Translations under genes and position numbers: made by a program
Notes under the pieces: generated by a model
Database searches by the model: none
What the model was told of the DNA's origin: nothing
The model's input: only the letters and a program-made list of their open reading frames with translations
Part shown: piece by piece, positions 17,819-35,032 of the stretch
Position numbering within the stretch: the first letter of the stretch is position 1
Layout of the letters: each line of letters starts with the position of its first letter
NCBI RefSeq assembly: GCF_014595955.1
Contig: NZ_JABVCF010000001.1
Location: 558,001 to 622,000 of the forward strand
DNA length: 64,000 bases
Reading direction: 5' to 3'
Source: Pseudaminobacter soli (ex Zhang et al. 2022)
Lineage (GTDB): Bacteria > Pseudomonadota > Alphaproteobacteria > Rhizobiales > Rhizobiaceae

Positions 17819-19107
17819 AGGTCGCGCTCGTCAACCCGCGCTGGAGCTACGAGGCGAGCATCTATTTCGGCTGCCGCGAGCCTCACCTGCCCCTTGAGCT
17901 CGGCTACTCGAAATCGCTCCTCGAAAAGGACGGCCATGAGCTGCTGATGCTCGATGGGCAGTTGCAGCAGTTCGACAATTCCGAGTTGGCCGAACGGGTG
18001 GCCGAGTTCGGTCCCGACATGACGGTGATGACCACGGCCCCGACCTATCTTTTCTGGCGGTGCGCGCCTCCGGAGCTTCGCATCCCCGCCGAATTCCTGA
18101 ATTACCTCGATGACCGCGGCGGCCGCACGGTCGCCGTCGGACCGCACGGCTCGGCAACGCCGGGATCGACGCTCAGGAAGCTCGGCGTCGACATCGTCGT
18201 GCGCGGCGAATGCGAGGAGATCGTCGCCCAACTCGCGAACGGACCGGACTGGAGGGAAATCCCGTCAACCGCATATCTCCGGGACGGCGAGGTCGTCAGC
18301 AAGGGCGGCGTCCATGCAAGTCGCTTTGTGGACCACGAACCACTGCGCTGGCCGACGGAATGGCTCCAGCGACACCACCACCATCACCACCGCTTCGATC
18401 ACGAGCAATACGGTTTGGGCGCCGAAGTGGAAGCATCACGCGGATGCCCGTACAACTGCAGCTTCTGCGCCAAGATCGACTTTCGCGATGCCTACCGCCG
18501 GCGCAACCACGAGGCCATCGTCGCCGAGATCGACGGACTGATCGCCCAGGGCGTCGGCTACGTCTACTTCATCGACGAGATCTTCCTGCCGCAGAAAGCC
18601 CTGCTCGAGGCGCTGGTCGAGCGCCCCATCAAGTTCGGGGTGCAGACCCGCATCGATCTCTGGAAGCCCGATCTTCTGGAACTGCTCGGCCGGGCGGGCT
18701 GCGTCTCGATCGAGGCTGGGCTCGAAAGTCTCACGGTCGAAGGCCGCGAAATGCTCGCCAAGCGGTGCCGGCTGGGCACCGAGGAATTGGCCGCCCTGCT
18801 GATCAACGCACGCAGGCACGTGCCCTTTGTGCAGGCCAACCTGATCGGAGTGGTGGAAGACGACCCGGAACTGGTTGCCTATTGGCGCAAGCACCTGATC
18901 GATAATGGAGTGTGGGCCAATGAGCCGGTCCCGCTCTACCCCTACCCCAGTTCTCCCAGCTACCGGCAGCTCTGGGGCGAGCCGGACGACCTCGCCTGGG
19001 AGCGGGCCCACGAGCATTACCTCGCCTCGTTCAGGAACTTCAGCGACATCCAGGAGAAGCAGCCGCTGCCGCTCCGGGTTCTGGAACAGTCATGCTGCGC
19101 AGCTTAG
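17815..19107 (+). CDS. B12-binding-domain radical SAM enzyme
   Basis: A 430-aa protein with an N-terminal cobalamin-binding-like Rossmann domain (about residues 1-145) and a radical SAM barrel. The cluster motif is C211-x3-C215-x2-C218 (RGCPYNCSFC). Family members use 5'-deoxyadenosyl radical and often methylcobalamin to methylate unactivated carbon or phosphorus, or rearrange substrates. I recall a TIGRFAMs family of such proteins in oligosaccharide-type cassettes (TIGR04295) but could not check membership. Residues 187-192 are a natural run of six His just before the cluster. ATG 17815 overlaps the previous stop as ATGA. Probable job: C-methylation or remodelling of a sugar in the same pathway. 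Confidence 0.82.
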   Translation: MKVALVNPRWSYEASIYFGCREPHLPLELGYSKSLLEKDGHELLMLDGQLQQFDNSELAERVAEFGPDMTVMTTAPTYLFWRCAPPELRIPAEFLNYLDDRGGRTVAVGPHGSATPGSTLRKLGVDIVVRGECEEIVAQLANGPDWREIPSTAYLRDGEVVSKGGVHASRFVDHEPLRWPTEWLQRHHHHHHRFDHEQYGLGAEVEASRGCPYNCSFCAKIDFRDAYRRRNHEAIVAEIDGLIAQGVGYVYFIDEIFLPQKALLEALVERPIKFGVQTRIDLWKPDLLELLGRAGCVSIEAGLESLTVEGREMLAKRCRLGTEELAALLINARRHVPFVQANLIGVVEDDPELVAYWRKHLIDNGVWANEPVPLYPYPSSPSYRQLWGEPDDLAWERAHEHYLASFRNFSDIQEKQPLPLRVLEQSCCAA

Positions 19108-20192
19108 CTCAGCCACGCCGCATCCTGATGACGGTCGATGCCGTGGGAGGCGTGTGGAACTACGCCATGACGCTCGGCCGGGAACTGAAGCGCATGGGAA
19201 TGTCCATCGTCTTCGCCGGTGTCGGCCCGGGGCCCAGCGCCGAGCAGCAGGCTCAGGCGGAGGCCATCGGGACCGTCGTCTGGCTGCAGACTCCGCCGGA
19301 CTGGATGACCGACCGCCCCGAGGTCCTGGACGGCCTGAAGGACGAGCTTCCCGCCTTGGTGCGCGAGCATGCGATTGATCTCGTCCACCTCAATGCGCCC
19401 TCGCAGGCGGCCGGGCTCGAAGTCCCCTGCCCTGTCGTCGTGATCTCGCACTCCTGTGTCGTGACCTGGTTCCATGCGGTATTGGGCGAACCCGTCCCGG
19501 ACGGCTGGCGCTGGCACGAGGAGCGGAATCGGCAGGGCTTCGAGCGCGCGGACGCGATCGTCGCGCCCAGCACCAGCCACGCGGCCCTGATGCAAGCCTG
19601 CTATGGTCCGATCGCGCGGCTGAGCGCGGTCTACAATGCGGTGGAGGAGATCGCCTCGGCCGGCGAAAGGGAGCCGATCGTCGTTGCTGCGGCGCGGTGG
19701 TGGGACAACGGCAAGAATGCTGCGGTTTTCGATGAGGCCGCGGCGAACTCCGCATGGCCTGTGAGGGCGATCGGCGCCACTCGAGGCCCGAATGGCGAGC
19801 ATGTGGAGTTCAGGCATGCCCGCGCAACGGGGTCAATTCCAGCCTTCGAGATCAGATCAGCCTTCTCCCAGGCCGGCCTGTTCGTATCGCCGTCTCTCTA
19901 CGAACCGTTCGGGCTGGCGGCACTCGAGGCCGCTCTCTCCAGCACACCGCTGCTGCTCGCCGATATACCGACCTATCGCGAGCTTTGGGACGGGGCGGCG
20001 CTGTTCTTCCCGCCTCGCGACGCGGCTGCACTCTCGGATGCGATCAACAGCCTGGCCGGGGATCCGGAACGGCGGCGCCAGTTGGGCAGGCTTGCGGCTG
20101 AGCGGGCGCGACGTTTCTCGCCGCGCTCGCAGGCCGCCGCCATGGCAGCGCTCTACCAGAACGCCGTCGAAGCGGTAGCCAGGGGACGATGA
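19092..20192 (+). CDS. Glycosyltransferase family 4
   Basis: A 366-aa GT-B fold enzyme, cytoplasmic. The N-terminal domain shows the GGVWNYAMTLGRELKRMG acceptor-domain start; the C-terminal domain has SPSLYEPFGLAALEAAL, the E-x7-E nucleotide-sugar signature of GT4. It starts at ATG 19092, overlapping the radical SAM gene by 16 nt. A retaining transfer from an NDP-sugar is expected; donor and acceptor are unknown. The MshA step of mycothiol synthesis is also GT4, so an inositol phosphate acceptor is worth testing. Confidence 0.85.
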   Translation: MLRSLAQPRRILMTVDAVGGVWNYAMTLGRELKRMGMSIVFAGVGPGPSAEQQAQAEAIGTVVWLQTPPDWMTDRPEVLDGLKDELPALVREHAIDLVHLNAPSQAAGLEVPCPVVVISHSCVVTWFHAVLGEPVPDGWRWHEERNRQGFERADAIVAPSTSHAALMQACYGPIARLSAVYNAVEEIASAGEREPIVVAAARWWDNGKNAAVFDEAAANSAWPVRAIGATRGPNGEHVEFRHARATGSIPAFEIRSAFSQAGLFVSPSLYEPFGLAALEAALSSTPLLLADIPTYRELWDGAALFFPPRDAAALSDAINSLAGDPERRRQLGRLAAERARRFSPRSQAAAMAALYQNAVEAVARGR

Positions 20193-21325
20193 CGATGCGT
20201 TTCCTGTTCTACACCCACTCACTCGTTTCCGACTGGAACCACGGCAACGCCCACTTCCTCCGCGGGATAATGCGCGATCTCGTCGCGCGAGGGCACCGGG
20301 CGATCGCTCTGGAGCCCGAGGACGGCTGGAGCCGCACCAATCTGGTGACCGAGCGCGGTCCCTTCGCCGTGGAGCGGTTTGGCTCGGATTTTCCCGAACT
20401 CACCTCCTTCGCCTATCGGCCGGACTTCGATCACGAAGCGTGGCTCGCCGAGGCGGACGTCGTCGTCGTGCACGAATGGACCGATCCGGCGCTGCTGGCG
20501 TGGATCGGGCGCGCCCGCCGCGATGGCGGGCGGTTCACCCTCCTCTTCCACGACACGCATCACCGCGCGGTTTCGGCCGAGGGAGATATCTCCTCGCTCT
20601 CCCTCGCCGACTATGACGCGGTGCTCGTCTTCGGCGAGACGCTGCGCGAACGCTACCTCAGGGCCGGCTGGGGCAGCCAGGTCTTCATTTGGCACGAGGC
20701 CGCCGACGACCGGGTGTTCCGGCCGTATCCCGACATCGTCAAGATCGGCGACCTCGTCTGGATCGGCAACTGGGGCGATGACGAGCGAAGCCGGGAAATC
20801 GGCGAGTTCCTGGTCGAGCCGGCGAAGGAGCTTGGGCTGAAGGCGACCGTGCACGGTGTGCGCTATCCCGATGCTGCGCTGGGCGCCCTCGCCGCGGCTG
20901 GCATCCACTACGAAGGCTGGCTGCCCAATGCGGAAGTGCCGAGGGCATTTGCGGCAAACAAAGTGACCGTGCACATTCCCCGCCGACCCTATGTCGAAAG
21001 CCTGCCGGGCATCCCGACCATCCGCATGTTCGAGGCGCTGGCCTGCGGCATTCCGCTGGTCTCCGCGCCATGGTCGGACAGCGAGAACCTGTTCAGGCCT
21101 GGCAGCGATTTCCTCTACGCCCGCGACGGCGAGCAGATGCGCGGTCATCTCCGCGCCATCCTGAACGATCCGCAACTGACAGCCTCCCTCGCCACATCGG
21201 GCCTGGAGACGATCCGCAACCGCCACACCTGCCGGCACCGCGTCGACGAGTTGCTCGGCATCCTCGTCCAATGCGGGACTACCCAGGTCCTCGACCAACT
21301 TGCCGCCAAGGAGGCCGCGCAATGA
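20189..21325 (+). CDS. CgeB-like glycosyltransferase (copy 1)
   Basis: A 378-aa putative GT-B enzyme of the CgeB ('spore maturation protein') family. N-terminal YTHSLVSDWNHGNAHFLRGI and C-terminal PGIPTIRMFEALACGIPLVSAPW followed by FLYARDGEQM are the family pattern; the C-terminal R-FEA-ACG-P motif is the likely donor-binding region. CgeB of Bacillus is thought to glycosylate spore surfaces; activity of the family is little studied. ATGA overlap with the upstream GT4. Confidence 0.78.
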   Translation: MTMRFLFYTHSLVSDWNHGNAHFLRGIMRDLVARGHRAIALEPEDGWSRTNLVTERGPFAVERFGSDFPELTSFAYRPDFDHEAWLAEADVVVVHEWTDPALLAWIGRARRDGGRFTLLFHDTHHRAVSAEGDISSLSLADYDAVLVFGETLRERYLRAGWGSQVFIWHEAADDRVFRPYPDIVKIGDLVWIGNWGDDERSREIGEFLVEPAKELGLKATVHGVRYPDAALGALAAAGIHYEGWLPNAEVPRAFAANKVTVHIPRRPYVESLPGIPTIRMFEALACGIPLVSAPWSDSENLFRPGSDFLYARDGEQMRGHLRAILNDPQLTASLATSGLETIRNRHTCRHRVDELLGILVQCGTTQVLDQLAAKEAAQ

Positions 21326-22416
21326 AGCTCGCATTCTACGGTTCCAGCCTGCTGTCCTCCTACTGGAACGGCGCGGCCACCTATTATCGGGGACTGCTGC
21401 GGGCGCTAGCGGAGCGCGGCTACGATATCACCTTCTACGAACCAGACGTCTACGACCGCCAGAAGAACCGGGACATCGAGGCGCCCGACTGGTGCAAGGT
21501 CGTCGTCTACCAGCCCACGCAGAGCGCGCTGAGAGAGGTCCTGGCGCGGGCGGTGGAGGCCGACATCGTCGTGAAGGCGAGCGGCGTCGGCTTCGAGGAC
21601 CATGCGCTCCTACGCGGCGTTCTCGACAAGGCGCGGCCCGGGGCGCTGCGTGTCTTCTGGGACGTCGACGCACCGGCAACGCTGGCCGAATTGAAGGAGG
21701 ACGCCAGCCATCCCCTGCTCGCCGCCCTTGCCGAACTGGACATGGTGCTCACCTACGGCGGCGGCGATCCGGTGGTTCACGCCTATCGGGCAATGGGCGC
21801 GGCCGACTGTATCCCGATCTACAACGCACTCGATCCCGACACCCACCATCCCGTCGAGAAGGACGGCCGCTTCGCCTGCGACCTGGCTTTCCTCGGCAAT
21901 CGCCTTCCCGATCGTGAGGCGCGCGTCGAATCCTTCTTCGTCGAGGCCGCTGCGGCACTGCCTCATCAGCATTTCCTGCTTGGCGGGGCGGGGTGGGGCG
22001 ACAAGCCGATGACGCCGAACGTCCGCTGGCTCGGTCATGTCGGGACACGCGACCACAACGCCTTCAATGTGACCCCGAAGGCGGTCCTCAACATCAGCCG
22101 CGAGAGCATGGCTTCGACCGGCTTCTCGCCCGCCACGCGCGTCTTCGAGGCCGCCGGCGCGGGGGCCTGCCTCATCACCGACGAGTGGCTGGGCATCGAG
22201 CTTTTCCTGAAGCCAGGGGAAGAGGTGCTGGTCGCGCGTGACGGCAAGGACGTCGCCGACATTCTTCGCGACCTCACGCCTGAGCGCGCCACCGCGATCG
22301 GGCAGAGGGCGCTGAAGCGGGTCCGGGCCGAACACACATACCGCCACCGCGCAGATCTGGCCGACGAGATCTTCCGGCGCGCGCTCAACACGCCTGCCAT
22401 GGAGGCCGCGGAATGA
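21322..22416 (+). CDS. CgeB-like glycosyltransferase (copy 2)
   Basis: A 364-aa CgeB-family protein: N-terminal FYGSSLLSSYWNGAATYYRG, central VFWDVDAPATLAEL, C-terminal TRVFEAAGAGACLITDEW and HTYRHRADLADEI. AAGGAGG lies 7 nt before ATG 21322, which overlaps the preceding stop as ATGA. It is clearly related to copies 3 and 4 (the WDVDAPATL / YDIDTPVTL block) but more distant from copy 1. Predicted to add one sugar of the cluster's glycan. Confidence 0.78.
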   Translation: MKLAFYGSSLLSSYWNGAATYYRGLLRALAERGYDITFYEPDVYDRQKNRDIEAPDWCKVVVYQPTQSALREVLARAVEADIVVKASGVGFEDHALLRGVLDKARPGALRVFWDVDAPATLAELKEDASHPLLAALAELDMVLTYGGGDPVVHAYRAMGAADCIPIYNALDPDTHHPVEKDGRFACDLAFLGNRLPDREARVESFFVEAAAALPHQHFLLGGAGWGDKPMTPNVRWLGHVGTRDHNAFNVTPKAVLNISRESMASTGFSPATRVFEAAGAGACLITDEWLGIELFLKPGEEVLVARDGKDVADILRDLTPERATAIGQRALKRVRAEHTYRHRADLADEIFRRALNTPAMEAAE

Positions 22417-23525
22417 CGGGTGCCATGGACCTCGTCTTCATCGGCCTGACGCTCTCGTCCTCCTGGGGCAATGGGCATGCCACCACCTATCGAGCGCTGC
22501 TCAGGGCGTTGGATGCGCAGGGGCACCGGGTGACGTTCCTTGAGCGGGACGTGCCCTGGTACGCCTCCAGCCGCGATCTCGAAGAGCCCGACTACTGCCG
22601 ATTGCGCTACTACGAATCGGTGGATGAACTGCGGCGGAGTTATCGGCGCAACATCGCCCAGGCCGACGCCGTTATCGTCGGCTCCTACGTGCCCGAGGGG
22701 CCGGCGGTGATCGACGCGGTCGCGGACATCGCAGACGGACAGTTCTGCTTCTACGACATCGATACGCCGGTCACGCTGGCCAAGCTGGAAAGTGGCGAGT
22801 GCGAGTATCTGGCGCCCCCCCAGATCCCGCTGTTCGACATCTACTTCTCCTTCACCGGCGGGCCGACGCTCACCAGGCTGAAGCGGCAATATCGTGCACG
22901 GCGCGCCGAGGCCCTTTACTGCGCGGTCGATCCGGACCGCTACGCGCCGACTGGCGAGCCCCCCAAATGGGACCTCGGCTACCTCGGCACCTACAGTCCG
23001 GACCGGCAGCCCACATTGGAAAGGCTGCTCATTGAACCCGCCAGGCAGATGCCGGAGCGGCGCTTCGTGGTAGCCGGACCGCAATATCCGACGTCCATCC
23101 GCTGGCCGGAGAATGTCGAGCGCATCGAGCATCTCCCGCCGGCCCAGCATGCGTCCTTTTACAGCCGCCAGCGCTACACGCTGAACGTGACCCGCGCCGA
23201 CATGATCGCGGCCGGCTGGTCGCCCAGCGTGCGCCTGTTCGAGGCCGCGGCATGCGGCACGCCAGTTATCAGCGATGCCTGGGCGGGCCTGGAGAGCCTT
23301 TTCGGCGGCGACATCCACGTCACCACCCGGTCCGACGATGTCGTCCGCATCCTCTCCAACGAGGAGGACATCGTCGGACGGCGACTGGGTTCCGGCGCCA
23401 GGGAACGCGTGCTCGCACGACACACGGCCCAGCACCGGGCCAGGGAACTAGTGGGCTATCTGGCCAGCCCGGTGGAGGCGCGAACCAGAAAAGCGGAGAA
23501 GGAATCGGCAGGGACCGCAGCATGA
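22413..23525 (+). CDS. CgeB-like glycosyltransferase (copy 3)
   Basis: A 370-aa CgeB-family protein: SSSWGNGHATTYRALLRAL, FLERDVPWYASSRDLEEPD, YDIDTPVTLAKL, DLGYLGTYSPDRQ, and C-terminal SVRLFEAAACGTPVISDAW. It is a close paralogue of the copy at 28527 in the second operon, with the same blocks in the same order and near-equal length. ATGA overlap with copy 2. Two such similar enzymes may transfer the same sugar to different positions. Confidence 0.78.
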   Translation: MTGAMDLVFIGLTLSSSWGNGHATTYRALLRALDAQGHRVTFLERDVPWYASSRDLEEPDYCRLRYYESVDELRRSYRRNIAQADAVIVGSYVPEGPAVIDAVADIADGQFCFYDIDTPVTLAKLESGECEYLAPPQIPLFDIYFSFTGGPTLTRLKRQYRARRAEALYCAVDPDRYAPTGEPPKWDLGYLGTYSPDRQPTLERLLIEPARQMPERRFVVAGPQYPTSIRWPENVERIEHLPPAQHASFYSRQRYTLNVTRADMIAAGWSPSVRLFEAAACGTPVISDAWAGLESLFGGDIHVTTRSDDVVRILSNEEDIVGRRLGSGARERVLARHTAQHRARELVGYLASPVEARTRKAEKESAGTAA

Positions 23526-24598
23526 CTGCCGCAATCCCAGGAGGCGACAGGTCGACCATGATGAAGAATGGAAAAACCAAGACGGCGCTGGTCGCCGGGG
23601 GCGCGGGCTTTCTTGGATCGCATCTCTGCGAAACACTTTTGAAGAACGGCTATTCAGTCATTTGTCTGGACAATTTCCTCACGGGCACTGCTGGAAACAT
23701 CAAGGAACTCTACCGCGACCCGCACTTCAGCCTGATCGAGCATGACGTGTGCAAGCCGCTCGAACCCAGCGGAAAGCTTGACTTCGTCTACAACCTGGCC
23801 TGCGCCGCCTCGCCGCCGCACTACCAGGCCGACCCGGTGCACACGATGCGCACCTGCGTCCTCGGCACGCTCAACCTGCTGGAAATCGCCGAGCGCCACG
23901 GCGCACGCTTCGTCCAGGCCTCAACCAGCGAGGTCTACGGCGATCCCGACCAGCATCCGCAGCGCGAGGACTATGCAGGGCATGTGAACTGCACGGGCCG
24001 CCGCGCCTGCTACGACGAAGGCAAGCGGGCGGCGGAAGCACTCTGCTTCGACTTCCTGCGGGCGAAGCGCGTGGACGTCAGGGTGGCGCGCATCTTCAAC
24101 ACTTACGGGCCGAGGATGCACCCGAACGACGGCCGCATCGTCTCGAATCTCGTGGTGCAGGCACTCTCCGGCAGGCCTCTGACCATCTATGGAAGCGGCG
24201 CGCAGACGAGGTCGTTCTGCTACGTCTCCGACCTCATCACAGGGCTGGTCAGGCTGGCCGAGGTCGCGGAAAACCCGGGCGCCCCGATCAATGTTGGCAA
24301 TCCGTCCGAATTCACCATCCTGGAACTCGCCGATCTCGTGCTGGAACTGGTCGGGTCGGAGAGCCGCATCCAGTACATGCCGCTGCCGGAGGACGATCCG
24401 CGCCGGCGGCGGCCGGACATCTCGCGAGCCCACAAGCTCCTCGAATGGTCGCCGACCGTACCGCTGCGCGAAGGGCTTCAGCATACGATCGCGTACTTCG
24501 CGTCGCTCGCTGCGGAGCGGCGCCCGCGCAAGTCCCTCAGGACCACCCGGCCGGCAGCTAGGATCCTGCAGAAGGCACCGACCGCCGCGACTGCTTGA
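23522..24598 (+). CDS. UDP-glucuronate decarboxylase-like epimerase/dehydratase
   Basis: A 358-aa extended short-chain dehydrogenase with GGAGFLGSH, NLACAASPPHYQ, catalytic STSEVYGDP, YDEGKR (Y-x3-K) and RIFNTYGPRMHPNDGRIVSN. These blocks are characteristic of UDP-xylose synthase (Uxs), which decarboxylates UDP-glucuronate to UDP-xylose. A UDP-xylose or related pentose donor would therefore be available for the cluster's glycosyltransferases. It is the last gene of operon 1; the start overlaps copy 3 as ATGA. Confidence 0.85.
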   Translation: MTAAIPGGDRSTMMKNGKTKTALVAGGAGFLGSHLCETLLKNGYSVICLDNFLTGTAGNIKELYRDPHFSLIEHDVCKPLEPSGKLDFVYNLACAASPPHYQADPVHTMRTCVLGTLNLLEIAERHGARFVQASTSEVYGDPDQHPQREDYAGHVNCTGRRACYDEGKRAAEALCFDFLRAKRVDVRVARIFNTYGPRMHPNDGRIVSNLVVQALSGRPLTIYGSGAQTRSFCYVSDLITGLVRLAEVAENPGAPINVGNPSEFTILELADLVLELVGSESRIQYMPLPEDDPRRRRPDISRAHKLLEWSPTVPLREGLQHTIAYFASLAAERRPRKSLRTTRPAARILQKAPTAATA

Positions 24599-24962: not shown

Positions 24963-26705
24963 CTAGAGGAGCAGCGCTCCGAGCTTCGCCATATAGCGCT
25001 CCCGCAGCGCAAACTGCCTGGATTTCTCCCAGTCCGGCCCGGCCGTGGCGAAGGTCCAAAGCCCGATCTGAAACGCCAGGTAGCAAGGCGTGTAGAAGGC
25101 TACCAGCCGTGGATCGACCTCGCGTCCGCTGCCTGCTTCAACCGCGATGCGCAGGCTTTCGAGTTCACCGCTTGAAAGATCGTGCTCGATCCCGGCGGCC
25201 GCGATATCCCAGGCGATGTCCTGGCAGCCGACGAGGTCGTGGGCTGCCGCGTGGTCCAGCGCGTCGGTCTTGACCAGCTTGCCCGCAGGGGTGACGAGGA
25301 ATTCCCAGGCGTGGAGCCGACTGTCGGTTTCGACGGGGGTGAGCCGGCACGGCCCAACCGGCCTGGATTCGAACCACCGCCTTAAGCGCATGGCAAAATC
25401 GCCCGCCAGGGCGAGTTCGGCATTGTGCCCCGCCATTTCGGTCAGTTCACCGAGCGATGCCCCCTGTTGAGAAGCGACGCAATGGCGGGCGCGATAGCCA
25501 AGATAGCTTCCCAGCCAGTCGATGAGGCGTGCCTTGTCGAAGCCAGACAGAGGCAGCGGAGTGCCCCGAACCCAGCGCTCCACCAGAAAGCCATGGCAAA
25601 GCCCCACCGGCTCCGACGTAAACCCACCCTCGTGGAGCGTCCTGGCGAGGGCAAGCTTGTGCTCTCCGGTGTCGCCCAGCCCGGCGAACCTCGCCAACCA
25701 CCAGTCGGCGCCACTCGAGACCAGATACTTCCGGCGCTCCTGCCTCGGGTCACAGGAGGGCCACTGCGCAGGATCGGCATAGACGATCTTCCGCCAGGCC
25801 CCACCGAAGAAATCCGTCAGCTCGAACCCGTCGGTGCCGAGAAGATCGCCGATCCAGGAGCGAAGGCTCCGGCTGGGATGCGTGGAGTCGCCGATTACCT
25901 CGTCGAAGCCAGCGCAGTGCCGGGCCGAATGTGCCCATGCCCCACGGTACTGCTCGGCGGCCTCGGGGCCCGGCCCGCCTTCATGACTGGGGAAGAGGTG
26001 GATGCGGCTCGCGGCTACTCCCAATGACTGGAGCCATTCGACGACGGCACCGAAGGAACTGCCGGAGAGGCCAGGTCCCTCGTCGACAATGGCGACGGGC
26101 GCGGCAGGGTCGGAAAGCGCTTCCGCGACGAGAATCGTTTCCGCCCTCAGTTCGCGTCGAAAGGGATGCCCTACAGGCCGGAAGCTCTTCGGCGGCTTTG
26201 CACCGAGCGCGGCTGCGATCAGTGCCGCAAGGCCAAGGCCAATGCTGCGGATACCGATCACCACAGTCTTCGCCGGCAGGCCGGACCGCCGCGCCGCCTC
26301 AACATAAAGCTCCGGATAGAGGGCATAGAAGTCATAGCCCTCAGCGCGCGACGTAGTGATCAGGCCGGCCGGTGCCAAACTTTCTCGAAGGTGGTCAACG
26401 TCGATTTCAGGGAAGATATCCGCCCGCAGGCCCGTGTCCCAGGAAACTGCGATCTGCTCCGCAATAGACATCAGAAGAGCGTTCGCGGCGGTCTGTCTGT
26501 TCGAAGGCGCGTCGACGCCCCGCGCCTCGAAGTCGGCGTCCGCGACCCCCTGGGCGAGTTCCGCGGCAGACATAAAGGCGCGCACCAGGGCGGCATGCCG
26601 TTCGAGCCCCGGTCCGAGCGCTCCGATCCGCTTGAGTGCCCTGACGACGGATTCTAGAGCTTGCTCGCAAGTCTGCTCCGTGCGGAAGTCACCGTAGACG
26701 AACAT
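24963..26705 (-). CDS. Uncharacterised 580-aa phosphoribosyltransferase-like protein
   Basis: I do not recognise the whole protein. Residues about 148-230 look like a type I phosphoribosyltransferase: VVIGIRSIGLGLAALIAAALG, then VAIVDEGPGLSGSS (207-217), which has the position and shape of the PRPP loop. The C-terminal half (about 330-580) weakly resembles a kinase-like (APH-type) fold around AHDLVGCQDIAWDIA. ATG 26705 was chosen because AGGGGG lies 4 nt upstream; an in-frame extension to 26798 is less likely. It is transcribed against both glycan operons and sits exactly between them. A role in supplying or transferring a ribose or phosphoryl group is possible but unproven. Confidence 0.6.
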   Translation of the reverse strand: MFVYGDFRTEQTCEQALESVVRALKRIGALGPGLERHAALVRAFMSAAELAQGVADADFEARGVDAPSNRQTAANALLMSIAEQIAVSWDTGLRADIFPEIDVDHLRESLAPAGLITTSRAEGYDFYALYPELYVEAARRSGLPAKTVVIGIRSIGLGLAALIAAALGAKPPKSFRPVGHPFRRELRAETILVAEALSDPAAPVAIVDEGPGLSGSSFGAVVEWLQSLGVAASRIHLFPSHEGGPGPEAAEQYRGAWAHSARHCAGFDEVIGDSTHPSRSLRSWIGDLLGTDGFELTDFFGGAWRKIVYADPAQWPSCDPRQERRKYLVSSGADWWLARFAGLGDTGEHKLALARTLHEGGFTSEPVGLCHGFLVERWVRGTPLPLSGFDKARLIDWLGSYLGYRARHCVASQQGASLGELTEMAGHNAELALAGDFAMRLRRWFESRPVGPCRLTPVETDSRLHAWEFLVTPAGKLVKTDALDHAAAHDLVGCQDIAWDIAAAGIEHDLSSGELESLRIAVEAGSGREVDPRLVAFYTPCYLAFQIGLWTFATAGPDWEKSRQFALRERYMAKLGALLL

Positions 26706-26766
26706 TGCGCCCCCTGTACCAGGGAACCCAAACGCGCCCGAGGGAACTTTGATCCCTTGGGCCTGG

Positions 26767-26791
26767 GGAACAATCGCGCGACTCCGCAGTT
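26767..26791 (+). promoter_or_regulatory. Possible EcfG-type promoter of glycan operon 2
   Basis: GGAAC, 16 nt, AGTT, ending 21 nt before the Ino1 start codon. It has the same sequence variant and spacing as the element before operon 1. Confidence 0.55.
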
Positions 26792-26812
26792 CTAGCACGG
26801 GAACTTACCTGA

Positions 26813-27933
<1,121 letters not shown>

Positions 27934-27937
<4 letters not shown>

Positions 27938-28530
27938 CCACCACCTTCTTCCTAATCCGCCACGCAGCCCATGAGGATCTGGGTCGTTCGCTGACGGGAA
28001 GGAAGGAGGGGGCTCGGCTGGGGCGCGTCGGACGCGTGCAGGCGTTGCGGCTGGCGGAGTTGCTGTCGAGCGAGGCCATTTCAGCTGTCTACTCCAGTCC
28101 CCGCGAAAGGACACGAGAAACCGCCGCGGCGATCGCGATCGCCTGCGAGACCGGGCCGGTTAAGACTGTCGAGGAGGTCGACGAGATCGACTTTGGCGAA
28201 TGGTCGGGCAAGACGTTCGAGGAACTCGACCAGGACGCCGGCTGGCGCCGCTGGAACGAGGTGCGCGACCAGGCGCAAACGCCGGCGGGTGAGAGCATGG
28301 CGGACGTCCAGGCTCGTGCCCTCGATTTCGTCTGGCAGCTTACCCGAACAAATCGGGGTGAGGCGGTGGCAGTGGTGAGCCATTCCGATGTCATAAAGGC
28401 GATCGTCTGCCACGTACTGGGGCTGCCGATCGCCCATTGTTTCCGTTTCGATATCGACCCCGCCTCGGTCACCACCATCGTGATCGGCGATTGGGGAGCC
28501 AAGCTTCTGCGGATGAACCAAACCGCATGA
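27934..28530 (+). CDS. Histidine phosphatase family protein
   Basis: A 198-aa phosphoglycerate-mutase-fold protein. The phospho-His motif appears as LIRHAAHE (RHA rather than RHG). [12 protein letters not shown], the catalytic E in [15 protein letters not shown], and the second His in [11 protein letters not shown] are intact. ATGA overlap with ino1 makes a phosphatase acting on an inositol phosphate or phosphoglycoside intermediate attractive, analogous to the missing-step phosphatase of mycothiol synthesis, but the family's substrates are very diverse. Confidence 0.87.
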
Positions 28531-29636
28531 CGGGATCCGGCATGCGTCTGACCATATTCGGACTGAGCGTCAGTTCGTCCTGGGGAAACGGCCATGCCAC
28601 GCTCTGGAGAGGATTGATCCGGGCGCTCGCCGCGCGCGGCTGGAGCGTGACCTTCTTCGAGCGCGATGTGCCCTACTATGCCACCACGCGCGATCTCTAT
28701 GAGATCGAACCCGGCGAGTTGGTGCTCTACGAGAACTGGACGGAGGTGCGCCGACAAGCGCGTCAGGCAGTCGATGAAGCGGATGTGGTGATGGTCACCT
28801 CCTATTGCCCGGACGCGATCGCCGCGACCGATCTCGTGGCAGATGCCGGGAAAGCTCTCAAGGTGTTCTATGATCTCGATACGCCGGTGACCCTGTCGCG
28901 GCTCGGGACCGAGGAGCATCCCGCCTATATCGGAGAGCGGGGCCTTCGCGATTTCGACCTGGTGCTGAGCTACACCGGCGGCATCGCCCTGGACCGCCTC
29001 CGCTCGGACCTTGGCGCCCGCCATGCCGCGCCGCTCTACGGTCACGTCGACCCTCAGATTTACGAGGCGGGAGAGCCCAATTCGGCCTTCGCCGCGGATC
29101 TTTCCTATCTCGGCACCTATGCCACCGACCGTCAGGAGGGCGTGGAGCGGTTTCTCGTACGCCCGGCCGCCCTGCAGCCGAACCGTCGGTTTGTGATCGG
29201 CGGTGCCCAGTATCCGCAGGACTTCCCTTGGACACCCAACATCTATTTCGTGCGCCACCTGCCGCCGGCGGACCATCCTTCGTTCTACGCTTCGTCCCGG
29301 GCGACCCTCAACGTCACGCGCGGCGCCATGGCCGCAATGGGATGGTGCCCCTCGGGCCGTCTGTTCGAAGCCGCGTCATGCGGCGCCACGATCCTGACCG
29401 ACGTCTGGGACGGGCTGGACGAGTTCTTCGAGCCGGGCTCCGAGGTCCTGCCTCTCTCCAGCACCGAGCACGCCTTAGCCGCGCTCGAGATGGACGATGC
29501 CGAACTGCGCCGGATCGGCCGGCTGGCGCGCGAGCGCACGCTCGCGCAGCACACGTCGGCGATACGGGCTGCCCAGTTGGAACGCATGTTGGAGGAGGCG
29601 CATTCGTCGCACTGGGAGCAAAGGGAGACGGTGTAG
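28527..29636 (+). CDS. CgeB-like glycosyltransferase (copy 4)
   Basis: A 369-aa CgeB-family protein closely paralogous to copy 3: SSSWGNGHATLWRGLIRAL, FFERDVPYYATTRDLYEI, YDLDTPVTLSRL, DLSYLGTYATDRQ, SGRLFEAASCGATILTDVW. ATG 28527 overlaps the phosphatase stop as ATGA; ATG 28542 is an alternative. An open frame extending to 28437 lies inside the phosphatase gene and is rejected. Confidence 0.78.
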   Translation: MTGSGMRLTIFGLSVSSSWGNGHATLWRGLIRALAARGWSVTFFERDVPYYATTRDLYEIEPGELVLYENWTEVRRQARQAVDEADVVMVTSYCPDAIAATDLVADAGKALKVFYDLDTPVTLSRLGTEEHPAYIGERGLRDFDLVLSYTGGIALDRLRSDLGARHAAPLYGHVDPQIYEAGEPNSAFAADLSYLGTYATDRQEGVERFLVRPAALQPNRRFVIGGAQYPQDFPWTPNIYFVRHLPPADHPSFYASSRATLNVTRGAMAAMGWCPSGRLFEAASCGATILTDVWDGLDEFFEPGSEVLPLSSTEHALAALEMDDAELRRIGRLARERTLAQHTSAIRAAQLERMLEEAHSSHWEQRETV

Positions 29637-30458
29637 ATGCTGGGCGTCGTACCGGCCGCAGGAAAGGGAACCCGGATCCAGCCCCTCGGCTTTTCCAAAG
29701 AACTGCTGCCTGTCGGCAGCCGCCTGGAAGGTCCCGTCGAGCGGCCCTGCGCGGTGAGCGAATATCTGGTGCGCCGCATGGTCATGGCCGGGGCGGACAA
29801 GATCTGCTTCGTCATCGCTCCGGGCAAATCCGACATCCTCGAGTACTATGCTGCCGGCTACTCGGAGGCGGCCACAGTCTTCGTCGTGCAGCCCTCCCCG
29901 GTCGGCCTCTGCGATGCGATCTTCCGGGCCGCACCGCTGGTTGGGCCCGACGAACAGGTTCTGGTCGGCCTTCCGGACACGATCTGGTTTCCGGAGGACG
30001 GGTATTCGGCGCTGCCGAAAGACTGCCTTTCCTTCCTGCTCTTTCCTGTCGATCGCCCCGAATTCTTCGACGCTGTCGTGACTGATGAGTTCGGCCGGGT
30101 CAGCGAAATTCAGGTGAAGGAAAAAGACGCCCAGTCGAACTGGATTTGGGGCGCCTTCTCCATGCCGGGGCGGGTTCTTCGGGAACTCGCCGACCTCTGG
30201 CATGTGCGCGAGGAGCAGGATGAATATGTCGGCACTCTAATCAACGCCTATCTGGCCCAGGGAGGAGAAGCGCTCGGCGTGAGGGCGGGGAGCGAATACG
30301 TCGACGTGGGCACCTTCGACGGCTACCGCCGGGCGGTGAAGCTGCTCGGCGAGGCCTCGCAGCAGGAGCAGCCCCGCGCAGCCGATTTCCCGAACATCGC
30401 AACGACCATCTGTTCGCAGCCGGGTGCCACAAGAATTCCTCTCCGGGAAGGGAGATGA
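29637..30458 (+). CDS. Sugar-1-phosphate nucleotidyltransferase-like protein
   Basis: A 273-aa protein with the signature VVPAAGKGTRIQPLGFSKELLPVG, a version of the G-x-GTR-x-P-x-K-LLPV pyrophosphorylase motif. DTIWFPEDG may carry the metal-binding Asp, and EYVDVGTFDGYRRAV ends the catalytic domain as in RmlA-like enzymes. It would activate a sugar 1-phosphate to an NDP-sugar for the cluster's transferases. The ATG directly follows the upstream stop, with GGGAGA 8 nt away. Confidence 0.8.
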   Translation: MLGVVPAAGKGTRIQPLGFSKELLPVGSRLEGPVERPCAVSEYLVRRMVMAGADKICFVIAPGKSDILEYYAAGYSEAATVFVVQPSPVGLCDAIFRAAPLVGPDEQVLVGLPDTIWFPEDGYSALPKDCLSFLLFPVDRPEFFDAVVTDEFGRVSEIQVKEKDAQSNWIWGAFSMPGRVLRELADLWHVREEQDEYVGTLINAYLAQGGEALGVRAGSEYVDVGTFDGYRRAVKLLGEASQQEQPRAADFPNIATTICSQPGATRIPLREGR

Positions 30459-31222
30459 GGATGCAACTGTCCAGCACGGAGATCCGTCGGCAGGTGGAGG
30501 CGCTCGGGCCATGGTTCCACAACATGGAACTGATGGGCGTAGCGACGGCTCCGAACCACTTTCTAGGCAACTATCCTTACATCAAATGGCGCAAGTTCGC
30601 CGATGCCATACCCGCGGACCTCTCGGGCATGACCGTTCTGGATATCGGTTGCAATGCCGGTTTCTACTCGATCGAGATGAAGCGCCGGGGTGCCGACCGC
30701 GTGCTCGGGATCGACTTCGACGCGGGCTATCTCGCGCAGGCCCGCTTCGCGGCCGACGTCGCGGACTGTGACATCGAGTTCAGGCTGCTCTCCGTCTACG
30801 ACGTGGGCGCTTTGAAGGAAAAGTTCGACGTCATCCTCTTCATGGGCGTCCTCTATCACCTGCGCCATCCGCTGCTGGCGCTCGACCTGATCCGCGAGCA
30901 TGTCGCCAAGGACCTCCTCATCTTCCAGTCGATGCAGCGCGGCAGCACCGACGAAGCGCAGGTGGAGCAGAACTACGACTTCTGGCAGCGCGAACTGTTC
31001 GATCGGCCCGAATTCCCAAAAATGCATTTCATCGAGCACCGCTATTCCGACGACCCGACCAACTGGTGGATCCCGAACCGCGCCTGCACGGAAGCGATGC
31101 TGCGCAGTTCGGGCTTCGAGATCCTCTCCCACCCGGAAGAGGAGGTTTATCTCTGCCGCGCCGCCCAGGCCCCCGCCGGGGAAGGCGCCGTCTACCCCGC
31201 GAGAGGATTTGCAAATGATTGA
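30455..31222 (+). CDS. SAM-dependent methyltransferase (TIGR04290-like)
   Basis: A 255-aa class I methyltransferase. SAM motif I is VLDIGCNAGFYSIEMKRRGA (about residues 63-82), followed by GIDFD and LFMGVLYHLRHPLLALD. The N-terminal LGPWFHNMEL and central QSMQRGSTDEAQ...WWIPN fit what I remember of TIGR04290, a family defined from an uncharacterised carbohydrate-type cassette; this needs a search to confirm. A sugar or inositol O-methylation is likely. ATGA overlap upstream. Confidence 0.82.
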   Translation: MRMQLSSTEIRRQVEALGPWFHNMELMGVATAPNHFLGNYPYIKWRKFADAIPADLSGMTVLDIGCNAGFYSIEMKRRGADRVLGIDFDAGYLAQARFAADVADCDIEFRLLSVYDVGALKEKFDVILFMGVLYHLRHPLLALDLIREHVAKDLLIFQSMQRGSTDEAQVEQNYDFWQRELFDRPEFPKMHFIEHRYSDDPTNWWIPNRACTEAMLRSSGFEILSHPEEEVYLCRAAQAPAGEGAVYPARGFAND

Positions 31223-32150
31223 AGCCGCGATGATCTGGAACGAGCCGAACAACAAGTCCCACTGGGACCCCGAACTCGACCCCGATTGGAGCCGGTTCGC
31301 CGAGATGTCCATCCTGGCGGCGGATGCGATCGCGGCCGAAAACCCGGCCTTGACCAAGGTGCTTGGCGGCATCTCGCCGATCGACCCCGGCTTCATGCAG
31401 CGCATGAAGGATTTTGGTGTGCTGGATCATGTCGATGCCGTAGCCGTCCATGGTTTTCCGCTCGACTGGAATCTTTGGCAGGTCCACGAATGGCCGCAGA
31501 AGATCGCCGAGATCGCAGCCGTGACCGATCTGCCGATCTGGGTGAGCGAAGTGGGTGTTTCGACTTTCGGCGCCGAGGAAGTGCAGGCGTGGGGGCTTAA
31601 ACGCACGGCGGAGCTTCTCAGGGGTAATACTCCCCGCATCCAGTGGTACAGCCTCTACGACCTGCCGCGCTCCTGGGAAGCCACGACGCGCCACAAGGAG
31701 GCGGAAGGATCTTCCTACTACCGCCACTTCTACATGGGCCTCCTGCGCGAGGACGGGACACCGAAGCCGGCCTTGGAAGAGTTCGCGCGCCACACGCCCG
31801 AGATGGGGCTGGTCCAGTGGTTCCATTTCGAGGATCAGCGCCTGGACGACGCGGTCGCCTGGATGAAGCGCCTCGGCGTGACCTATCTGCGCACCGGACT
31901 TTCCTGGGCAGACAGTTTCAGGCCCGGCGCCCTGGACTGGTTCGATCGGCAGATGGAGGCCCTCGCCCCCTTCGACGTGACGCTGACCTTCTGCTTCACG
32001 CCCGAGCATCGCGGCGAGATGCCTCATCACACCAGCCCGCCGCAGGTGCCCGAGGAGTTCGCCGAGTTCTGCGCCGCGATGACGCGCCGCTACGCCGCGG
32101 CGGCACGACCGGCAAGCGCGCGGCAAGCTATGCGGGCTACGGCCGCCTAA
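31215..32150 (+). CDS. Glycosidase-like TIM-barrel protein with circularly permuted motif order
   Basis: A 311-aa protein with GH clan-A features. WNEPN (8-12; E10 would be the acid/base) is normally at the end of strand 4, yet here it is at the N-terminus. VHGF (78-81), VSEVG (110-114; E112 would be the nucleophile) and WYSLYD (144-149) follow as strands 6, 7 and 8. The second half (about 198-293) then reads like strands 1-3: LVQWFHFED, LGVTYLRTGLSWAD, FDVTLTFCFTPEHRG, SPPQVPEEFAEFCAAMTRRYA. That last stretch is what normally comes just before WNEPN. No signal peptide, so cytoplasmic: it may trim, transglycosylate or only bind the glycan. ATG 31215 has AGAGG 8 nt upstream. The last 15 residues (AAARPASARQ...) look non-native. 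Confidence 0.75.
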   Translation: MIEAAMIWNEPNNKSHWDPELDPDWSRFAEMSILAADAIAAENPALTKVLGGISPIDPGFMQRMKDFGVLDHVDAVAVHGFPLDWNLWQVHEWPQKIAEIAAVTDLPIWVSEVGVSTFGAEEVQAWGLKRTAELLRGNTPRIQWYSLYDLPRSWEATTRHKEAEGSSYYRHFYMGLLREDGTPKPALEEFARHTPEMGLVQWFHFEDQRLDDAVAWMKRLGVTYLRTGLSWADSFRPGALDWFDRQMEALAPFDVTLTFCFTPEHRGEMPHHTSPPQVPEEFAEFCAAMTRRYAAAARPASARQAMRATAA

Positions 32151-32155
32151 CGGCC

Positions 32156-32992
32156 ATGCAGCAGCGGGTCTCACCGGCGGATGTCATAGCGCCCTTCGCG
32201 GCCATGCTGGCGGGCGATGCGCCCGGCAGCGGCAAGGCTGTGGTGGTCATCGCTCATCCGGACGACGAGACGGTCGGGATGGGCAGCGTTCTCCACTGTC
32301 TGCAGGACCTGCAGATTATTCATGTGACGGACGGCGCGCCGCGCGACATGGCCGATGCACATGCGTACGGCTTTTCGACCTGTGAGGACTATTCGCGGGC
32401 GCGCCGGGCCGAGTTGAACAAGGCCCTTGCGGAGGGCGGTGCATCGCACGCCGCGCTCGTCGAACTCGGAGTCCCCGACAAGGAGGCGGCGCGGAACCTC
32501 CCTCGCCTCTCGACCGAACTCGCCAGGCTGATCGCCAGCGCGCGTTTCGTCGTCACCCATTGCTACGAAGGCGGGCACCCGGATCATGATGCATGTGCCT
32601 TCGCGGTGCACGCGGCCTGCCGGTTGCTGCGCCAGCGGGAAGGTCTTTGCCCGGAGATCATCGAGGTGCCCCTCTATAACGCCGGCGAACAGGCCCCTTC
32701 GTTTCAAACCTTCCCTGCCGGACCCGGCCCGACGGCGATCGAAATGCCGCTCCCAGAGGACGCGCTCGATCGGAAGCGCCGGATGCTTGCCTGCTTTGCG
32801 ACGCAACGCCAGGTGCTCGCGCCCTTCACCTCTCCGGTCGAGCGCTTCCGCAATGCGCCGGCCCACGACTTCCAGAAGCTGCCGAATGCAGGGCGGCTCT
32901 ATTATGAGACGCTGCCCCTCGGCCTGACCGGCGCCGAATGGCTCGTGCTGGCCAGCGGCGCCTATGACGAACTGGGGCTTTCCCCACTATGA
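32156..32992 (+). CDS. PIG-L family N-deacetylase
   Basis: A 278-aa zinc-dependent deacetylase of the PIG-L/MshB family. Metal ligands are visible in AHPDDE (33-38) and GGHPDHD. Family members remove the acetyl group from GlcNAc in GlcNAc-PI (GPI anchors), GlcNAc-inositol (mycothiol) or GlcNAc-malate (bacillithiol). With ino1 and glycosyltransferases in the same operon, a GlcNAc-inositol-type substrate is a natural hypothesis. ATG 32156 lies 5 nt after the previous stop; an upstream open frame belongs to the out-of-frame shadow of the glycosidase gene. Confidence 0.88.
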   Translation: MQQRVSPADVIAPFAAMLAGDAPGSGKAVVVIAHPDDETVGMGSVLHCLQDLQIIHVTDGAPRDMADAHAYGFSTCEDYSRARRAELNKALAEGGASHAALVELGVPDKEAARNLPRLSTELARLIASARFVVTHCYEGGHPDHDACAFAVHAACRLLRQREGLCPEIIEVPLYNAGEQAPSFQTFPAGPGPTAIEMPLPEDALDRKRRMLACFATQRQVLAPFTSPVERFRNAPAHDFQKLPNAGRLYYETLPLGLTGAEWLVLASGAYDELGLSPL

Positions 32993-34044
32993 AGCTCACG
33001 GTCCTCAACGTTGCCTATCCGCTGGCGCCTGTCGGGCCGGATGCGGTCGGCGGTGCGGAGCAGGTGCTCTCGGCACTCGACCGCGCGCTCGTCGAGATGG
33101 GCCATCGCTCCATCGTTATCGCATGCGAGGGCTCCACGGCCGCCGGAACGCTGGTGAGCGTGCCTTTCGAGGTTGGCATTCTCGATGAGGCTGCAAAGGC
33201 GCGAGCGCATGCGCGCCACCGCGAAGCGATCGCTACGACGCGGCGGCGCTGGCCGGTCGATGTCGTCCACCTCCACGGCATCGATTTTCAATCCTACCTG
33301 CCGGATAACGGGCCGACGCTGGCTACCCTGCACCTGCCGCTCGATTGGTATTCCGCCGAGGCGCTCCGCCCTGCCCGGCCGGACCTGTGGCTGCACGCGG
33401 TCTCGCAATCCCAGCACCTGCTCGTCCCGGATGGTGCGATGCTGCACGGACCGATCCCCAACGGCGTGGATTTCGATGCACTGGCACGCCCCCACGCCAA
33501 GCGCAATTTTGCCCTCGTGCTCAGCCGCATCTGCCCTGAGAAGGGCATTCACCTGGCATTCGAGGCGTCCCGAATGGCCGATATGCCTTTGCTGGTAGCA
33601 GGGCGGGTCTACCGCTACGAAACACACGAACGCTATTTCCGCGACGAGGTGCTGCCGCGGCTGGACAGGCGGCGAAGGTTCCTGGGGCCGGTCGGCTTCA
33701 TCCGCAAGCGGCGGCTCTTGAACGCCGCGCGCTGCCTTGTCATCCCGAGCCTGGCGGCGGAAACCAGCTCGCTCGTGGCCATGGAAGCGCTCGCCTGCGG
33801 AACGCCCGTCGTGGCATTCCCGAACGGCGCACTGCCGGAGGTGATCGACCACGGCCGTACCGGGTTTCTCGTGAACAGCCTAGTCGAGATGGCTGAGGCC
33901 ATGGCTGCAGCCGGCTCGCTGGATCCGGAAACCTGCCGGGCAGAGGCGCGCCGCCGGTTCTCGCTGGAGAAAATGATCGCCGGCTACATGGATGCCTATC
34001 ATGCGCTCGCCAGGCTTGGCCACGGCGTCTCCGCGGTGGCCTGA
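32989..34044 (+). CDS. Glycosyltransferase family 4
   Basis: A 351-aa GT4 enzyme: GGAEQVLSALDRALVEMGH near the N-terminus, VVHLHGID, SRICPEKGIHLAFEA at the domain junction, and ETSSLVAMEALACGTPVVAFPNGALPEVI (E-x7-E donor motif) in the C-terminal domain. ATGA overlap with the PIG-L gene. Either this or the GT4 at 19092 could perform an MshA-like transfer to inositol phosphate; sequence alone does not decide. Confidence 0.87.
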   Translation: MKLTVLNVAYPLAPVGPDAVGGAEQVLSALDRALVEMGHRSIVIACEGSTAAGTLVSVPFEVGILDEAAKARAHARHREAIATTRRRWPVDVVHLHGIDFQSYLPDNGPTLATLHLPLDWYSAEALRPARPDLWLHAVSQSQHLLVPDGAMLHGPIPNGVDFDALARPHAKRNFALVLSRICPEKGIHLAFEASRMADMPLLVAGRVYRYETHERYFRDEVLPRLDRRRRFLGPVGFIRKRRLLNAARCLVIPSLAAETSSLVAMEALACGTPVVAFPNGALPEVIDHGRTGFLVNSLVEMAEAMAAAGSLDPETCRAEARRRFSLEKMIAGYMDAYHALARLGHGVSAVA

Positions 34045-35032
34045 GGCAGAGCTGCCCCTGCGCACCGAGGTCATCGCGGGCCTCGACGACCTGCGCCGAA
34101 TCGAGCGGCTCTGGTGGTCGCTCTGGGAGCGCTGCCCTCCGGCCACGCCCTTCCAATCGCCTGCGTGGCTGCTGCCCTGGTGGGAGGTTTTCGCGCCGGG
34201 GCGGCTTGCCGCGATCGCGGCGTGGCGTGATAACGAACTCTATGGCCTCGCAGCCTTCTATCTCGAACCAAACACTGACCGGCTTCTGCCGGCCGGCATT
34301 TCGCTCAGCGACTATCTCGATGTCCTCATCGATCCGGATTCGGAGGAGGAAGCGGGGACCGCGATTGTCCATACGGCAGTCGCCCTGCCCTGGCGCGAAT
34401 GGAGTTTTGAGGACCTCGCGGCCGGAGCCTGCGCGATGCGCCTTCCGGTGCTTCCCGGAACAAAAGAAACCGTCTCGCCGCACCACGCCGCGCCCGTCAT
34501 TCCGCTCTGCGGCGGCGATGATCTCTGCTGCTGCGTACCGGCCCGGCGCAGGCGGCAGTTGAGACGGGCGATTGCGGCTGCTGAGCGGCTCGGGGAAATT
34601 TCGATCGAGCGAAAGGAAGACGCACCCAAGCAATTCCTGGACGAACTCATCCGCCTGCATGGGGCACGTTGGGAGGGCGACGGCGTCCTGAACGGCGCGG
34701 ACGTACTGCGCTTCCACAGGCTCGCCCTGCCCCGGCTGGCCGCTCGTGGGCTGGCGCGCTGCTGGCTGATGTCGATCGACGGCAAGCCGGTGGGCGCCTA
34801 TTACGGTTTCGGCGACCACGACCGCGCCTATGCCTATATCGGCGGGTTCGACCCCGACTATTCCGAGGTCAGCCCCGGCTCGATCCTGACCGGACATGCG
34901 ATCAGGCAAGCCATCCGCGAGGGCGCGCGCGAATTCCACTTCCTCAGGGGCGGCGAGGCGTACAAGTTCAGTTGGGGAGCCAAGGAGCGCTGGACCAGCC
35001 GGCGCGTGTTCACCCGGACCGAGACATCATGA
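33992..35032 (+). CDS. BioF2-like (GNAT/FemAB fold) acyltransferase
   Basis: A 346-aa protein of the acetyltransferase group formerly called CelD/BcsL-like (PF13480 type). Typical blocks are TPFQSPAWLLPWWEVF, ARRRRQLRRAI, and RCWLMSIDGKPVGAYYGFG followed by FHFLRGGEAYKFSWGA. It would acylate an amine or hydroxyl of the glycan, perhaps the amine exposed by the PIG-L enzyme. The ATG at 33992 overlaps the GT4 gene by 53 nt; TTG 34016 is a shorter alternative. Confidence 0.8.
   Translation: MPIMRSPGLATASPRWPEAELPLRTEVIAGLDDLRRIERLWWSLWERCPPATPFQSPAWLLPWWEVFAPGRLAAIAAWRDNELYGLAAFYLEPNTDRLLPAGISLSDYLDVLIDPDSEEEAGTAIVHTAVALPWREWSFEDLAAGACAMRLPVLPGTKETVSPHHAAPVIPLCGGDDLCCCVPARRRRQLRRAIAAAERLGEISIERKEDAPKQFLDELIRLHGARWEGDGVLNGADVLRFHRLALPRLAARGLARCWLMSIDGKPVGAYYGFGDHDRAYAYIGGFDPDYSEVSPGSILTGHAIRQAIREGAREFHFLRGGEAYKFSWGAKERWTSRRVFTRTETS

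Follow-up and report, generated by a model that had tools for sequence, protein, structure and literature searches.

A GH39-like glycosidase barrel predicted to be a natural circular permutant in Alphaproteobacteria

Introduction

Clan GH-A glycosidases are defined by an Asn-Glu pair that ends barrel strand 4 and a Glu that ends strand 7. To our knowledge, few enzyme barrels are natural permutants with unpermuted relatives in gene clusters of the same kind. The GH70 enzymes, whose substrates are alpha-linked, have their break elsewhere than the protein described here. In the GH70 glucansucrases, a glycosidase barrel is naturally circularly permuted relative to GH13; the accessible part of the source describes a separate family whose domains A, B, and C are close to those of GH13 and which has further domains, IV and V (PMC8398850). 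MalS, of GH13 subfamily 19, is also a glycosidase with permuted order; in the accessible part of its description, the order of domains is permuted (C-A-B-A-C) (PMC10223318), whereas here it is the strands inside the barrel that are permuted. Among the papers listed by our searches of the open-licence literature, we found no circular permutation in clan GH-A, and no paper that treats circular permutation together with PslG, a GH39 enzyme of Pseudomonas aeruginosa (PDB 4zn2 and 5bx9).

Here, we describe a 311-aa protein encoded in a 64,000-nt stretch of the Pseudaminobacter soli genome (the whole of which we call the window). Both of its halves align with PslG, with E10 and E112 aligned to PslG E165 and E276. 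Circular permutation is a known kind of event; this appears to be an instance from a new family, whose relatives make an unusually clean set.

Results

The first-pass annotation of the window had read this protein as a clan-A glycosidase barrel in circularly permuted order. In the translated ORF, WNEPN occupies residues 8 to 12 and VSEVG, which includes E112, residues 110 to 114; the later motifs WFHFED, LGVTYLRTGLSWAD, TLTFCFTPEHRG, PPQVPEEFAEFCAAM, and RRYA follow in the order that the annotation had given. The ordinary strand order of clan GH-A, 1 to 8, is replaced by strands 4 to 8 followed by 1 to 3.

We compared the native protein with PDB chains using phmmer, and the sole match was PslG (two distinct PslG sequences; E value of 0.0015 for the whole protein). 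This match comprises two stretches that run in swapped order relative to the query, residues 3 to 186 on PslG 132 to 321 (17.6 bits) and residues 201 to 297 on PslG 26 to 132 (6.2 bits, which alone is not significant). Rearrangement of the query into ordinary order gave a single PslG alignment (6 to 288 on 26 to 321; E value of 1e-7). Each half has homologs in an unpermuted family, and the two stand in swapped order, the mark of a natural barrel permutant. We also scored residues 1 to 297 in 99 rotations, one at every third residue, with an HMM derived from 17 non-permuted relatives. The maximum, 155.2 bits over HMM positions 8 to 295, was reached at rotation 186 (starting at residue 187), compared with 98.8 bits for the native order (residues 5 to 184) and 69.2 bits for the lowest rotation. 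Because the rearranged query matches both a GH39 structure and the non-permuted relatives better, the permutation proposed in the first-pass annotation is supported, and the break lies where it had been placed, between helix 3 and strand 4. A profile of 50 orthologs gave further weak matches: beta-glucosidases were matched by its C-terminal part only (204 to 295 on 54 to 153 of 9uct; E value of 0.09), and its N-terminal part matched the beta-xylosidase 1px8 (7 to 47 on 157 to 194; E value of 0.58). Both weak matches fall where a permutation would predict.

The native protein matched nothing in NCBIfam and matched Glyco_hydro_cc alone in Pfam (17.3 bits against a cutoff of 21; residues 3 to 136). 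For Pfam, the rearranged query was used in place of the doubled one that had been suggested for comparison with GH5 and GH39 models; it scored 20.3 bits against Glyco_hydro_cc, just under the cutoff, and reached neither the GH5 nor the GH39 models. Sequence similarity to GH39 is seen via PslG after rearrangement and not via the curated Pfam GH39 model. The barrel of a fused non-permuted relative (described below) likewise had no glycosidase match in Pfam.

An AlphaFold2 model built from the 50-ortholog alignment (mean pLDDT of 82.9 and pTM of 0.85) contains eight strands alternating with helices, at residues 2 to 8, 47 to 53, 75 to 79, 108 to 113, 141 to 145, 198 to 200, 224 to 230, and 254 to 260. 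Based on the alignments to PslG and to the relatives, these are, in chain order, the ordinary strands 4, 5, 6, 7, 8, 1, 2, and 3. The prediction is a full (beta/alpha)8 barrel and not an open half, in keeping with the original reading; strand 8 is present, at residues 141 to 145 in the model and not at 144 to 149 as first given. VIA-align paired residues 2 to 294 with the designed TIM barrel 7uek (Z score of 15.2, rmsd of 3.3, 217 aligned) and residues 1 to 296 with GH20C 5ac4 (Z score of 14.5, rmsd of 3.6, 247 aligned), and alignment to whole barrels suggests that the modeled barrel is closed. The top Foldseek matches were other barrels, mostly of the aldolase, lyase, and isomerase types, with modest E values (1.6e-4 and weaker). 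GH39 is absent among the matches listed by both programs, which align in chain order and pair strand 1 with strand 1, so in our view these lists say little about homology. Loops 83 to 85, 162 to 165, and 265 to 271 have pLDDT values below 50; as they come after strands, they are expected on the face that holds the active site. In the proposed arrangement, the chain would begin and end within the loop that ordinarily leads from helix 3 to strand 4, and a short loop from helix 8 to strand 1 would link the former ends.

The GTDB genome collection holds at least 564 confirmed relatives. From the best 80 of these at least 564 loci, further loci, two S. meliloti plasmid records, and the window, we assembled 95 permuted rows (90 distinct). 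All 95 begin at the same residue, in a form of M-IEAAMIW whose first place is M in 87, L in 5, V in 2, and T in 1, and none has a normal N-terminal half in front, both as expected from the first-pass reading. The start codons at the best 80 of the at least 564 loci are ATG (76), TTG (2), and GTG (1), with one (at L051) not placed. In 13 of the 95 rows (12 distinct), a stop codon lies no more than 5 codons upstream of the start, which rules out a hidden N-terminal half upstream there. Mean column identity in the 50-row ortholog alignment is 78%, and the C-terminal tail (residues 298 to 311) varies in length and sequence. Permuted orthologs at G1246:C1:3595083-3595970 and G208:C9:21844-22767 are listed with one in-frame stop codon each, TGA and TAG, respectively.

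Based on the swapped PslG match, the gain in score on rotation, and the predicted barrel, we conclude that the protein is almost certainly a GH39-like clan GH-A barrel in which a natural circular permutation has become fixed, with a closed barrel fold. An alternative is a pseudogene produced by truncation or rearrangement, or an accidental joining of two gene fragments in the genome or its assembly; the Pfam match, confined to residues 3 to 136, is by itself what a truncated barrel would give, and in-frame stops do occur in the copies of G208 and G1246. The orthologs refute this explanation, which we regard as wholly implausible, because order and start are identical in all 95 rows and in the whole-genome samples, and the 50 aligned rows combine their high mean column identity with an invariant Glu pair. 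The swapped chain order could also belong to a protein whose active form is a domain-swapped dimer or an open assembly and not a closed monomer, given that the model was built for a single chain, that the strand beside the join (198 to 200) is short, and that several loops are uncertain. Such an assembly is very unlikely, however, since the join in the row alignment is short, with about the length of an ordinary helix-strand loop, the pTM value is high, and residues 2 to 294 align to whole barrels; a closed, permuted barrel is the reading that we adopt.

All 50 orthologs retain E10 and E112, and 57 positions reach 95% identity or more within each of two sets of rows, 40 permuted and 21 non-permuted. 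These near-invariant positions include N9, E10, H79, E112, W144, Y145, and R226; those named here besides the Glu pair are clan GH-A signature residues. N9 and E10 follow the strand at residues 2 to 8 (ordinary strand 4) and E112 falls within the strand at 108 to 113 (ordinary strand 7), the placement that defines clan GH-A. In the phmmer alignment, the two Glu residues face positions 139 and 250 of the PslG chain, which become E165 and E276 with an offset of 26 that we worked out from the construct (residues 31 to 442; 416-residue chain). The accessible part of the source names E165 and E276 as catalytic in PslG (PMC7237758). By this comparison, E10 is presumed to be the acid/base and E112 the nucleophile, and since the permuted chain is predicted to form the same closed barrel, both would be placed as in the ordinary relatives.

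We searched overlapping genome samples at the family, order, phylum, and class levels for permuted and ordinary forms. Among 199 family genomes, 34 had a match, of which 13 were permuted (72 to 100% identity), 20 were ordinary, and one was weak with stops; in the 20 ordinary cases, the counterpart of residues ∼195 to 294 lies directly ahead of that of ∼7 to 184 in one long frame. The 397 order-level genomes yielded 37 matches (31 permuted, 5 with the ordinary form only, and one weak), and three of the 31 (G571, G489, and G288) also match the ordinary form. Matches were found in 21 of 398 phylum-level genomes (12 permuted, none of them outside the class, 2 ordinary, and 7 distant) and, by profile search, in 14 of 385 class-level genomes (8 permuted and 6 ordinary).

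In the nearest non-permuted relatives found, the barrel is the N-terminal domain and is fused to a C2-epimerase homolog (SDR), which corresponds to the stand-alone gene SDR2 of the window (Table 1). The fusion was seen in the full frames of 4 of 17 ordinary forms, and an SDR2 match directly follows the barrel in all 8 mapped ordinary-form regions (L153 to L157, L159, L163, and L164). Over 17 loci (e.g., L094 and L096), the fused relatives are ∼32 to 35% identical to the permuted protein across residues 2 to 197 and ∼27 to 37% identical across residues 190 to 298. They share the 57 near-invariant positions and the same kind of gene cluster with the permuted form but differ in their ordinary strand order, in the SDR2 fusion, and in the distribution of the inositol-3-phosphate synthase homolog INO1, which at an E value of 1e-30 is matched in none of 24 fused-only genomes and in all 44 genomes that carry the permuted gene.

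We built a quick tree from 68 rows, namely 40 permuted, 21 ordinary, and 7 distant. A branch with an SH-aLRT value of 92 separates the permuted rows from all others, and another, with a value of 99, does the same for the fused rows; the very long outgroup branches leave the root unsure. A single permutation event is the simplest reading. We do not favor the permuted order as ancestral, because PslG and the distant relatives have the ordinary order, though here too the outgroup branches are very long. We infer that the barrel gene was duplicated in tandem and that the outer halves were then lost; no duplicated intermediate was seen in the genome samples searched. The direct repeats in 31150-32300, considered as a relic of tandem duplication, are three chance-like, short, two-copy families and were rejected.

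The 44 genomes with the permuted gene, taken from the family, order, and phylum samples, all contain SDR2. Of the 20 genomes whose sequence upstream of SDR2 we inspected, 18 had no barrel domain there at an E value of 1e-3; in another 21, as in the window, SDR2 lies in a frame of no more than 468 aa, too short for a fused barrel. Across the 44 genomes, a fused barrel is absent from 40, decayed in 2, and kept in 2. The latter two, G571 and G489, carry a fused form that looks intact in addition to the permuted gene, with the Glu pair intact in both forms. This distribution suggests that the fused barrel was replaced by the permuted copy. At G288:C3:313900-315600 (L168), the fused barrel is without WNEPN and keeps the second Glu (TEVG), and at G042:C5:77900-79600 (L167), neither Glu motif is recognizable; the epimerase is still attached in both.

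The window holds two adjoining gene groups (Table 1). Group A (15654-24598) consists of SDR1, SDR2, the TIGR04295 protein, four glycosyltransferases, and SDR3, and group B (26813-35032) of INO1, the phosphatase, a glycosyltransferase, the nucleotidyltransferase, the methyltransferase, the permuted gene, and the PIG-L, GT4-like, and GNAT genes. The methyltransferase gene overlaps the permuted gene by 8 nt. Our search of the open-licence literature returned no paper naming TIGR04295. Between the groups, on the minus strand (24963-26798), lies a gene for a 611-aa protein with no Pfam match at an E value of 0.001 and no NCBIfam match at 1e-10; by eye, its stretch VAIVDEGPGLSGSS resembles a phosphoribosyltransferase motif.

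Table 1. Coordinates of genes in the window and of parts of the permuted gene
Feature	Position	Strand	Basis
SDR1, GalE-like epimerase	15654-16760	+	PF01370; best NCBIfam match galE, below cutoff
SDR2, stand-alone CDP-tyvelose-2-epimerase-like	16757-17818	+	Nearest solved structure by sequence 1orr, E 2.9e-79
TIGR04295 B12-binding radical SAM protein	17758-19107	+	693 bits, cutoff 400
SDR3, UDP-glucuronate decarboxylase (UDP-xylose synthase) homolog, start approximate	23549-24598	+	4gll, E 3e-113
Inositol-3-phosphate synthase homolog (INO1)	26813-27937	+	PF01658; TIGR03450 523 bits, below cutoff 638
Histidine phosphatase family protein	27934-28530	+	NCBIfam matches below cutoffs
Glycosyltransferase, start uncertain (~28530)	28437-29636	+	PF13524
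Sugar-1-phosphate nucleotidyltransferase homolog	29637-30458	+	PF00483
TIGR04290 family methyltransferase	30455-31222	+	NCBIfam 385 bits, cutoff 300
Permuted GH39-like barrel gene (predicted)	31215-32150	+	ORF, ATG at 31215, stop 32148-32150; 95 permuted rows with shared start; AlphaFold2 barrel
Residues 1-192, ordinary strands 4-8, now leading	31215-31790	+	3-186 aligns with PslG 132-321
Presumed acid/base E10 codon	31242-31244	+	Invariant in 50/50 orthologs
Presumed nucleophile E112 codon	31548-31550	+	Invariant in 50/50 orthologs
Residues 187-197, new short join of old C terminus (after helix 8) to old N terminus (before strand 1)	31773-31805	+	Rotation scores highest at shifts 186-192; row alignment of both forms
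Residues 195-297, ordinary strands 1-3, now trailing	31797-32105	+	201-297 aligns with PslG 26-132
Residues 298-311, variable C-terminal tail past old helix 3	32106-32147	+	Low pLDDT
PIG-L deacetylase family protein, start approximate	32156-32992	+	PF02585
GT4-like glycosyltransferase	32989-34044	+	PF13692, PF00534
GNAT-type acyltransferase (Acetyltransf_6)	33992-35032	+	PF13480

We counted neighboring genes within up to 5 kb on each side of the permuted gene at the best 80 of the at least 564 loci, 74 of which have about full flanks. The phosphatase was present at 78 of these 80 loci, INO1 at 76, the methyltransferase at 63, the glycosyltransferase at 28530 at 47, and PIG-L at only 11. At the order level, INO1 was found in 73 of 397 genomes, comprising 31 of 31 with the permuted gene and 42 of 366 others. 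Co-occurrence counts of this kind are inflated and non-independent because the genomes are related; nevertheless, the 44 permuted genomes span 27 genera. Searches of the open-licence literature returned no paper on inositol-1-phosphate synthase and glycosyltransferase of S. meliloti pSymB, and none on INO1 with PIG-L or glycosyltransferase in Alphaproteobacteria.

Discussion

The permuted chain opens with a barrel strand, which leaves no room for a signal peptide, and a cytoplasmic enzyme is therefore expected. Given this location and the neighboring INO1, phosphatase, and SDR1 to SDR3 genes, we think a retaining beta-glycosidase or transglycosidase with an inositol-linked biosynthetic role most likely, at slightly less than an even chance. 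INO1 and the phosphatase would supply myo-inositol and SDR3 would supply UDP-xylose, and SDR2 and SDR1, as C2- and C4-epimerase homologs, could epimerize a nucleotide sugar. The enzyme would act on, or use as an acceptor, an intermediate containing inositol and pentose, trimming or transferring a sugar on the inositol-containing compound. The pathway is most likely the biosynthesis of an inositol/pentose glycoconjugate.

A plain catabolic beta-xylosidase would fit the label 'beta-xylosidase' that the S. meliloti pSymB record CP073680 gives to an ortholog, a label for which we found no experimental basis in the open-licence literature, and the solved sequence relatives do include, beside PslG, a beta-xylosidase and others at a weak level. 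We nonetheless consider this function unlikely, because there is no room for a signal peptide, a relative is fused to a nucleotide-sugar C2-epimerase homolog, and INO1, the phosphatase, the methyltransferase, and the glycosyltransferase recur at the best 80 of the at least 564 loci in the numbers given above. That same fusion to SDR2 could be taken to mean that catalysis has been lost and that the protein is a binding or scaffold subunit for SDR2 or a glycosyltransferase. This is improbable, since the Glu pair and the other active-site positions are invariant across the 40 permuted and 21 non-permuted rows; moreover, in 2 of the 4 permuted genomes that have a fused barrel, it is the fused barrel that is without WNEPN, as would be expected if the permuted copy were the active one.

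Combining an active, inositol-linked enzyme with the origin proposed above, we tentatively suggest a broader scenario, which we regard as a possibility and not as the expected outcome. This would be the first natural permutation in clan GH-A, in which one event within Alphaproteobacteria freed the barrel from its epimerase partner. With a recruited inositol synthase and phosphatase, the barrel might then have become an inositol-glycoside glycosidase or transglycosidase in an undescribed glycoconjugate pathway, while the older fused barrel was lost or decayed.

Both forms exist at ∼27 to 39% identity with the same active site, and the switch to the permuted form tracks a defined metabolic change, inositol synthesis. 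Together with the double-carrier genomes G571 and G489, this would allow a direct test of how chain order affects folding and activity. The permutation also helps to explain why a widespread gene has a Pfam match below threshold and why the 'beta-xylosidase' label is weak. The permuted gene occurs in soil and plant-associated bacteria, and the enzyme offers a clean natural test of how proteins survive rewiring.

INO1 also occurs apart from the permuted gene. In the genus g128 (e.g., G456, G420, G217, G486, and G400), 12 genomes with no match to the permuted gene have an INO1 that is 66 to 70% identical to that of the window, and five of the g128 INO1 matches are listed with one in-frame TGA.
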